Source: an uncultured Pseudomonadota bacterium (GTDB lineage: Bacteria; Desulfobacterota; Desulfobulbia; Desulfobulbales; Desulfurivibrionaceae). From it: a stretch of 64,000 bases of DNA. This document shows, in pieces, positions 23,573 through 29,790 of the stretch; positions within the stretch are counted from its first letter, which is position 1, and each line of letters opens with the position of its first letter. Where the stretch lies: contig CALMMG010000002.1 of assembly GCA_937868185.1 (NCBI GenBank), forward strand, positions 27,269 through 91,268, in the 5' to 3' direction. A program made the position numbers and the translations under genes. The notes under the pieces are model-generated. The model saw only the letters and a program-made list of their open reading frames with translations. It was not told the DNA's origin and did no database searches.

Positions 23573-24322
23573 TTACGCCGCCATCCCCGCCGCACGCGGC
23601 GAGGCTTTTCTGGGTTGCATCCAAAGCTGGGCGCGTTCTTCCACCGTTACCTGGCAGGAATCCTCGGCCCGAGCGGCACTGCTTTGGCAGATGGCATTGT
23701 TGCCCATCTTGGTGGCGCGGGTCAGTTCGGCTTCGGCCAGAGTCAGAAGTTGCTCTGCTGCCATGGTCTCATAGGCATGGCAAACGGCAATGCCCAGGGC
23801 CAGGTTTGCACCTTTGGTGGAAACGGCGCTGCGTAGAATGGTCCGAATCTCTTCCGCCCGTTTCCGCGCTTTACCCACAGTGGTGCCCGGCATGATCAGG
23901 GCCAGGCCGTTTTTTTGAAAGCCGGAGAGCAGATCCCCCGGATGGAGGCAGGGCGTAAGCGCTGTCGCTGGTTGGCCAGCCAGGGCGTTTGCCCCGGAAA
24001 ATGTGAGGAGGACAAGGGCGCAAGGCAGTCTGGTCTGCTGGACCTGGGCAAGCTCCATTGCCAGTTGTTGGCGGAGCCAGGCGAGGTCTGGCAGTTGTCC
24101 CTCTGCATGGCCAACCGTTGCTGAGCGGGGTTGGTCGGGAAAGCGCAGCCCGGCCAGAGTCGAAGCCACCTCCGATGCGGGAATGTTGCAGTCGATAATG
24201 AGTAGGCCCAGGGGCTGAGATGCTTTTCCGGTGAGTCTGATTGCGCGAACAGGGTGCTGGCTGGCCTGATCCTCAAGGCTGCGGTAAAGCATGGCAGTAT
24301 CCGATGGCGTTTTTTTGTTCAT
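23573..24322 (-). CDS. Degenerate GGDEF-domain protein (signature motif lost)
   Basis: GFQKNGLALIMPGTTVGKARKRAEEIRTILRSAV...LALGIAVCHAYETMAAEQLLTLAEAELTRATKMGNN aligns by eye with RYGGDEFALLLPGT...LSIGVA...LL..AD.AL..AK..GRN. Confidence 0.65.
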   Translation of the reverse strand: MNKKTPSDTAMLYRSLEDQASQHPVRAIRLTGKASQPLGLLIIDCNIPASEVASTLAGLRFPDQPRSATVGHAEGQLPDLAWLRQQLAMELAQVQQTRLPCALVLLTFSGANALAGQPATALTPCLHPGDLLSGFQKNGLALIMPGTTVGKARKRAEEIRTILRSAVSTKGANLALGIAVCHAYETMAAEQLLTLAEAELTRATKMGNNAICQSSAARAEDSCQVTVEERAQLWMQPRKASPRAAGMAA

Positions 24323-27340: not shown

Positions 27341-28348
27341 TTAAAGCAAACCAAAGAAAAGTACTTCGCACACCGCAGTGGGGTTGCAGTTGCGGGCCAG
27401 TTGTTTTCGGGCCATGTCCAGCAGTTGTAACCTCTTTGAGAGCTGTTGGCTCGACCAGCGGCGGCAGGCGGTCGGGAAGGTGGGGCTCAGATCATGGTTG
27501 ATGATCGAACCTGCTGTACCATGGCTGAAAAGGAGAAGATCATGGAGCCAGGTGGAGAGCAGTTCCAGGAGTTCGCCAAGATCCTCCTTGAGTTTGGCCG
27601 CTGTCTCGGCGAGTTCGGTAAGGGTCTGGATCGCTGCCGGGGTGTTCGGCTCAAGCCGGAGCAGGTTCCCGATAATCTCCTTCCGAAACCCCAGCAGATC
27701 TTTGGCCAGGAGGAGTCTTGCCCGGCCTAGGCTGCCTTCGGCCATGGCCGCCAGGGTGGCCGCGAGCTCCGGCTCTAGGCCTGCTTCCTGCGTCAGGATT
27801 TTCGACACTTCTGCCTGGGGGAGCGGGAAAAAAGGCACGGTCTGGCAGCGGGAGAGGATGGTGGGCAGAATACCGCCGGCTTCGTCGGCGGTAAGGATAA
27901 TCATGGTTTGGGCGGGCGGTTCTTCCAGGGTTTTGAGCAGGCTGTTAGCTGCTTCCCGCCGCATGGTGTGGATATCGCAGAGCAGCGCCACCCGGATTGT
28001 TGCCTCAAAGGGAGGGAAGGCCAGGGTTTTTTTAAGTTCGCGCACCTGATTGATCTTGATTGCCGCACCCTCCGGCTCGATTACGATGAAATCCGGGTGG
28101 TTGTTGGAATGAAACTTGCGACAGGAAGGGCAGTGCCCGCAGGGTTCGTGATTTTCAGGGTTTTGGCAGTTGAGGGCGGCGGCGAAGGTTCTGGCCAGGG
28201 TTTTTTTGCCAACCCCCATGGGACCTTTGAAGAGAAAGGCATGGGCCAGCCGGTTTTGCTCCACGGCACGGTGCAGCAGTTTTTTAGCCTTGTCCTGGCC
28301 GATGATCCCGGCAAAGCAAAGGGGTATGTTGTCCTGGGGCGGTTTCAT
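27341..28348 (-). CDS. holB: DNA polymerase III delta-prime subunit
   Basis: FAGIIGQDKAKKLLHRAVEQNRLAHAFLFKGPMGVGKKTLARTFAAALNC...CGHCPSCRKF; start set at MKPPQDN. Confidence 0.93.
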   Translation of the reverse strand: MKPPQDNIPLCFAGIIGQDKAKKLLHRAVEQNRLAHAFLFKGPMGVGKKTLARTFAAALNCQNPENHEPCGHCPSCRKFHSNNHPDFIVIEPEGAAIKINQVRELKKTLAFPPFEATIRVALLCDIHTMRREAANSLLKTLEEPPAQTMIILTADEAGGILPTILSRCQTVPFFPLPQAEVSKILTQEAGLEPELAATLAAMAEGSLGRARLLLAKDLLGFRKEIIGNLLRLEPNTPAAIQTLTELAETAAKLKEDLGELLELLSTWLHDLLLFSHGTAGSIINHDLSPTFPTACRRWSSQQLSKRLQLLDMARKQLARNCNPTAVCEVLFFGLL

Positions 28349-28446
28349 GCCCGTATCATACCCGATGCGGCAGGGATGAAAAAGGCAAAAGGCGGATAAG
28401 CCAGTCAAGCGAGACTCAGGTTGGGTGCAGGGAGAGGCGGGCGCAT

Positions 28447-29790
28447 TTAGGCCGTCGGGGTGGGGCGATCCTTGATGACCTGTTGGACTGCCTCGATGAT
28501 CTCGGAAGATTCGGGGCCTTTGCGGATTACCAGATCAGCGCCGGCAGCCAGGGCCTCTTGCTGGACCTCCGGCCGGTCATCCGCGGTAAACAGTAGGAGC
28601 TTCACCTCAACGTAATCTGGGCGGCGGCGGATTTCCTTGCAGATCTCAATGCCGGAGAGAAGCGGCAGGATGTAATCAATCACCGCCACCGCTGGTTTTT
28701 CGGCGAGGATCAGGGCCAACCCTTCCTGGCCGTTTGTTGCGGAAAGGGGGATGAACCCCGCCTTTTGGAGCAGACGGCTGTAGAGTCTTAAGATAACGGG
28801 GTTGTCATCGACGAGCACCACCTTGTGCTGGGAGATGGTCTCACCTGTTGTTTGTGTTTCGCTGAAATCCTGAAGAACCAGGAGTAGATCCCCTTGGCGC
28901 AAAGAGATTTCCGGTCCGGGGAAGATGGTGTCCTGTCCGGCCCGGCGCAAGCCGAAAATCCGGGTGCCCATCTGGCGGGAAACCTCTTCAATGGTGGCCT
29001 CGGCCATGCTCGAGCCTTCGTGTACCTCAATCCACTGACTGGCAGGGGGTTCTTTGTCTGTCTGCCTGCCGGTGGCGATGAGGAGGGCTTCGGCAATCCT
29101 CATCCCAGCCGAGGCAAAGGGGGAGATGACATTGTCGGCGCCTGCCCGGAGGATCTTATGCTCCGAGGAACTGTCTTCGGCGCGGGAGATGATATGGAGG
29201 GTGGGATTGAGTTCTCGGGCGGACAAGACAATAAAGAGATTGTCCGGGTCCTTATTAAGCAGGGCAATCAGGCCGGTGGCTGATTTGATCCCGGCCGCCC
29301 GGAGTGTCTCTTCGTTGGTGGCGTCGCCGTGAATATGGAGATGGCCCTGTTCTGTGATATGCTGACAGTGTTCCGCCGAATTTTCAATGATTACGAAATC
29401 AACCTGGTTGGCCTTGAAATGTTCAGCCGCCGCCGCGCCCACCCGCCCGTAGCCACAGAGAATGAAATGTGACTTGAGCTGGGCAATCTTCTTGTTCATT
29501 TTTTTTCTCTCCTTGCCCCCGGACCAGACCGTTTCAACGACCGACCCGACCAGAGCGTGGCTGGCAAAGGCCAGGCCGCTAAAGCCCATGATAATGTAGC
29601 CCGTGGTAAAAATCCGCCCGGTATCGGATAGCGGCCGCACCTCCCCGAAACCAACCGAGGTCAGGGTGATGACCGACATGTACAGGGCCTCGATAAAGGT
29701 GAAGTCTTCTAACCCCATATAACCCAGAATACCCACCAGGATGAGGGCGAGAATGGCTGCCAGGGTCCAGATGATTCGATGGGTTTTCAC
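28447..29790 (-). CDS. Two-TM potassium-channel-like protein with TrkA-N/TrkA-C (RCK) domains fused to C-terminal response-regulator receiver domain
   Basis: Pore ITLTSVGFGEVRPLSDTGR; RCK HFILCGYGRVGAAAAEHF; REC VVLVDDNPVI / AVIDYILPLLSG / LLFTADD / LVIRKG. Confidence 0.88.
   Translation of the reverse strand: MKTHRIIWTLAAILALILVGILGYMGLEDFTFIEALYMSVITLTSVGFGEVRPLSDTGRIFTTGYIIMGFSGLAFASHALVGSVVETVWSGGKERKKMNKKIAQLKSHFILCGYGRVGAAAAEHFKANQVDFVIIENSAEHCQHITEQGHLHIHGDATNEETLRAAGIKSATGLIALLNKDPDNLFIVLSARELNPTLHIISRAEDSSSEHKILRAGADNVISPFASAGMRIAEALLIATGRQTDKEPPASQWIEVHEGSSMAEATIEEVSRQMGTRIFGLRRAGQDTIFPGPEISLRQGDLLLVLQDFSETQTTGETISQHKVVLVDDNPVILRLYSRLLQKAGFIPLSATNGQEGLALILAEKPAVAVIDYILPLLSGIEICKEIRRRPDYVEVKLLLFTADDRPEVQQEALAAGADLVIRKGPESSEIIEAVQQVIKDRPTPTA

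Follow-up and report, generated by a model that had tools for sequence, protein, structure and literature searches.

A bacterial K+ channel–RCK protein fused to a complete receiver domain, with a probable internal start for a soluble RCK–receiver subunit

A single gene on the minus strand of the window (the whole 64,000-nucleotide stretch of DNA analysed here) combines a two-transmembrane K+ pore with RCK_N, RCK_C and a complete receiver (REC) domain in one open reading frame of 447 amino acids with a GTG start (28447..29790). The pore (Ion_trans_2, residues 13–79; 29554..29754; Pfam PF07885, 2e-13) aligns with those of MthK and NaK and contains the selectivity filter TSVGFGE (residues 44–50; 29641..29661), located by sequence and in the alignment of 49 homologues. 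It is followed by RCK_N (TrkA_N, residues 109–224; 29119..29466; PF02254, 3e-35) with a conserved GxGRVG...E nucleotide-binding motif, and by RCK_C (TrkA_C, residues 253–306; 28873..29034), whose PF02080 match (7e-6) is slightly under the curated cut-off. A variable linker (28825..28872; mean pairwise identity 15%, with low model confidence at residues 307–320) leads to the receiver (Response_reg, residues 324–436; 28483..28821; PF00072, 2e-20), which carries D328, D329, D372, T402 and K424; D372, encoded at 28675..28677, is the predicted phospho-acceptor. All of these features lie on the minus strand, and the presence of four Pfam domains in one frame bears out the first-pass annotation of this DNA as a K+ channel–RCK protein joined to a receiver. 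The frame remains open for 36 codons upstream of the GTG at 29790 and offers no other common start codon. The downstream gene, 38 bp away on the same strand, is holB (DNA polymerase III delta'; 27341..28408; PF13177), a neighbour rather than a partner, whose order relative to the fusion gene is conserved in the genus. Elsewhere on the minus strand, downstream of metG and in the same gene run, 23573-24322 encodes a short protein whose GGDEF match (2.5e-5) is marginal.

A two-transmembrane pore with a K+ filter followed by RCK, together with the alignment to MthK, places the channel part among MthK/Kch-type RCK K+ channels, and Pfam finds one TrkA_N and one TrkA_C per chain rather than the tandem RCK arrangement of GsuK. 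Among solved structures, the channel part is closest to GsuK and MthK and the C-terminus to CheY/PhoP-like receivers. The filter had been singled out as odd because it reads TSVGFGEV rather than TVGYGD, a suggestion that did not survive comparison: most of the 49 aligned homologues have TTVGYGE or TTVGFGE, the channel-only paralogues mostly have TTVGYGE, and a TVGFG filter is known in GsuK, Slo2.1 and Slo3 (PMC3510474). Since T(S/T)VG(F/Y)GE occurs in most aligned homologues, we regard the filter as ordinary family variation and dropped it as an unusual feature.

Full-length homologues are present in about 50 genomes. Within the genus they occur in four species at 86–91% identity, and across the order more than 40 homologues, from many families, share 42–54% identity. 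Our search of the class recovered a homologue in 47 of 258 genomes, and the rest of the phylum yielded one, in genome G313; two others, in G543 and G547, were reached via a Candidatus Lambdaproteobacteria record. Two of the class homologues run into masked sequence, and three distant ones (L077, L084, L093) have one in-frame stop each, reflecting decay or sequencing error. No plasmid-borne full-length copy was found, the best match covering 65% of the query. Most fusion-bearing genomes also encode a channel-only paralogue with about 37% identity, and in a tree of the channel part a branch with support 100 separates the fusions from 11 channel-only paralogues. Pairwise divergence of the channel correlates with that of the receiver (r = 0.88), as would be expected if the two had been inherited together since a single fusion. 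The fusion is real, old and conserved, and its members make up a single clade distinct from the channel-only paralogue.

The first-pass annotation had named a frameshift or mis-joining of two genes as what would overturn it, and the source genome, a fragmented draft of 205 contigs, would be a plausible setting for an assembly, frameshift or annotation error that joined a channel gene to a response-regulator gene. Such an artefact is ruled out by the independent genomes, about 50 of which share the identical full-length architecture. Within the genus, moreover, the whole gene is present or absent as one unit in the interval between holB and purL: it adjoins holB in five genomes, and holB directly faces purL in ten.

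The receiver shows every residue by which a true receiver is told from a pseudo-receiver, namely the five conserved D, D, D, T and K (PMC12632262). None of D328, D329, D372 and T402 varies among the 49 homologues, nor does K424 in the 47 sequences that reach it, so that the earlier description of a complete REC with its acidic pair, phospho-acceptor Asp, Thr and Lys stands, and the objection that the domain might be incapable of phosphorylation, raised with it, finds no footing in these residues. Between species of the genus the receiver has a dN/dS of 0.03–0.13, like the pore and RCK, and is under purifying selection. Judged by its residues, it looks competent for phosphorylation. An independent sign of phosphorelay use comes from the G313 homologue, in which REC is followed by a C-terminal Hpt domain (PF01627, 4e-10; L078, match at 1501-2829; L113, 8945-10786); this arrangement supports a role for the receiver in phosphotransfer. 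Downstream of the G313 fusion, the sequence can be read as two genes, one Ser/Thr kinase-like and one for a PP2C-like phosphatase.

As the first-pass annotation had stated for the window, no partner kinase is adjacent, and the same is true of the 38 homologue loci with readable neighbourhoods, as judged with a small home-made kinase profile of limited sensitivity; a histidine kinase occurs anywhere in the fetched stretch at only 3 of these 38 loci. A cognate kinase gene beside the regulator, as sought for a two-component pair, is lacking in the window and the examined loci. The host genome encodes about 80 HATPase_c proteins, and within it the receiver is an orphan.

Just before the RCK domain, Met98 is shared by all 49 homologues. 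It stands ten residues ahead of the His at the start of the first RCK strand, a spacing identical to that of Met107 in MthK, from which the soluble RCK subunits of that channel start (PMC9440719; PMC2920069). In the window, nine nucleotides before Met98 lies the Shine-Dalgarno-like sequence AAGGAG (29509..29514, minus strand), recognised by its pairing energy and by synonymous codon bias. Anti-Shine-Dalgarno pairing of -5 kcal/mol or below precedes Met98 in 76% of homologues compared with 22% of other internal ATGs of the same genes, and when the set is collapsed to 22 representatives the values are 64% and 20% (p = 3e-6); in about one quarter of homologues no clear site precedes Met98. Codon choice is also biased, with GAG at Glu94 in 18 of 18 cases (7.7 expected) and AGA at Arg95 in 8 of 8 (2.0 expected), whereas control Glu positions have no comparable GAG excess; because the homologues are related, both the pairing and the codon figures overstate independence. 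The codons of the internal site appear to be under synonymous selection. The full-length GTG start has no recognisable Shine-Dalgarno sequence, whereas the internal one is strong.

The invariant Met98 and the selected site before it suggest that the gene probably makes a second product, a soluble RCK–REC subunit of residues 98–447 (28447..29499, minus strand). With a full-length and a soluble subunit from each gene, a mixed gating ring would bear eight receivers, which is the economical reading of these features. A strong Shine-Dalgarno sequence also precedes the same Met in 11 of 11 channel-only paralogues examined, which are likely to be two-product genes as well. In these paralogues (L002, L046, L048-L052, L054, L056, L058, L059) the site is of the GGGGAGG type, stronger than that of the fusions.

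We then considered what the RCK domain might sense. The Ca2+ ligands of MthK, which we take to be D184, E210 and E212, correspond to L177, an invariant Arg203 and Glu205, the last being kept as Glu in 39 of 49 homologues. With two of the three ligands replaced, MthK-type Ca2+ gating was rejected. The nucleotide motif G113xG115RVG118, by contrast with this ligand site, is intact, and an acidic residue, E or D, occupies position 136 in 48 of 49 homologues, the sequence pattern of a nucleotide-binding RCK domain. In GsuK, RCK2 binds ADP/NAD+ (PMC3510474).

A further candidate ligand is suggested by gene order in relatives. In one family, at 15 loci (L104-L107, L109-L111, L115, L116, L118, L122, L124, L127, L129, L130), cdaA and a YbbR gene (cdaR) come directly after the fusion gene in the same orientation, usually with glmM next wherever the contig is long enough. 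Proteins with RCK domains are established as receptors of c-di-AMP, and even proven receptors are reported to show weak conservation of the residues that bind it (PMC12453120). CdaA is encoded in 94 of 97 relatives, including the genome of the window, although the linkage itself is restricted to this one family of the order and is absent in the window. The synteny hints at a c-di-AMP input to the channel; it goes no further than that, since gene order in the family is conserved throughout this neighbourhood and the 104–465 bp between the fusion gene and cdaA leave room for a separate promoter. The probable internal start, the nucleotide-type RCK domain that has lost the Ca2+ site of MthK and the linkage to cdaA in relatives are additions to the first-pass annotation.

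Comparison with known systems shows parts that are all of known kinds in a combination that appears to be new. MthK (PDB 1LNQ) has the same two-transmembrane pore and single RCK_N–RCK_C, aligns over residues 10–306 (8e-26) and carries its internal-start Met at an equal distance before RCK, but two ligands of its Ca2+ site are replaced in the window protein, which has the nucleotide motif and an extra REC. GsuK of Geobacter sulfurreducens (PDB 4GX0), the best PDB match, shares the GFG filter and the nucleotide-type RCK; unlike the window protein, it has two RCKs in each chain and no REC, and with both RCKs in one chain it needs no second product. By ligand site and domain count, the window protein falls outside both the Ca2+-gated MthK group and the dual-RCK GsuK group. 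The channel-only paralogue (G000:C54, locus L002) is 37% identical over pore and RCK and has the same Met with a stronger GGGGAGG-type Shine-Dalgarno sequence, but it has no REC and belongs to a separate clade. Response regulators and CheY-like receivers possess the same complete catalytic set, whereas here an ion channel takes the place of the DNA-binding or enzymatic domain as the covalently attached output. Finally, the c-di-AMP-responsive KtrA, KtrC and CabP resemble the window protein in having RCK_C, with CdaA in the genome and a cdaA operon adjacent in one family; KtrA and CabP, however, are soluble transporter partners and not channel subunits. In the open-licence literature we found no RCK channel with a receiver.

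We propose, with a probability of about 0.62, that the protein is an MthK/Kch-type K+ channel under direct two-component control, with two products, an octameric RCK ring and phosphorylation at Asp372. One gene would give a full-length pore–RCK–REC subunit and, from the internal ribosome-binding site at Met98, a soluble RCK–REC subunit; four of each would assemble into one tetrameric pore and an octameric RCK gating ring with eight receivers. In the cell, an orphan sensor kinase, possibly acting via an Hpt, would phosphorylate Asp372, and the phosphorylated receiver would alter ring contacts so that the ring moves between closed and open, gating the pore. This control would be added to nucleotide binding at RCK_N and possibly to c-di-AMP binding at RCK_C. 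The linker between RCK_C and REC varies in sequence and is probably flexible, so that no tight mechanical coupling is apparent, and the predicted structure, built from five sequences (pLDDT 55, poor over RCK), is too shallow to decide between this mechanism and its rivals; we claim no structural coupling.

A flexible linker is also what would be expected if the protein were an ordinary ligand-gated RCK channel, responding to adenine nucleotide and perhaps c-di-AMP, with the receiver serving mainly as a dimerisation or stability module whose phosphorylation has little effect on gating. The intact GxGxxG...E nucleotide motif fits such a channel, as do the near-universal CdaA of the relatives and the 15 loci at which its gene lies beside the fusion gene. 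A scaffold receiver would, however, be expected to lose its catalytic residues, as pseudo-receivers do (PMC12632262), whereas T402 and K424, needed only for phosphotransfer chemistry, are invariant, and we consider this explanation unlikely. The signal could also run backwards or sideways, with the ion or ligand state of the channel tuning phosphate gain and loss by the receiver, so that the protein acts as a phosphate sink or as a sensor feeding a phosphorelay. The REC–Hpt chain of the G313 homologue can hand on phosphate as well as accept it, and with some 80 HATPase_c proteins in its own genome cross-wiring is plausible; but Hpt is found in that homologue only, and in every other homologue the chain ends with REC and no onward route can be seen, which makes this direction of signalling quite improbable.

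Returning to direct two-component control of the channel, a bolder form of this proposal would have three inputs converge on one ring: adenine nucleotide binding to RCK_N, c-di-AMP binding to RCK_C, and phosphorylation of the Asp in each of eight receivers, which the gene would provide through its two translation products. We offer this as a speculative possibility, with the odds against it; it would constitute an undescribed class of K+ channel and, if true, a two-component system would control membrane potential or turgor without transcription.

The outputs of two-component systems are usually transcription, second messengers or motility, and receivers built into all the subunits of a K+ channel would add a fast electrical one. 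The internal-start signature, common to the fusion and the channel-only paralogue, predicts the assembly of such mixed rings, and direct kinase control of bacterial membrane potential could be put to the test with a single purified protein plus a phosphoryl mimic. As the fusion suggests, sensor kinases of bacteria may act directly on an ion channel to open or close it.
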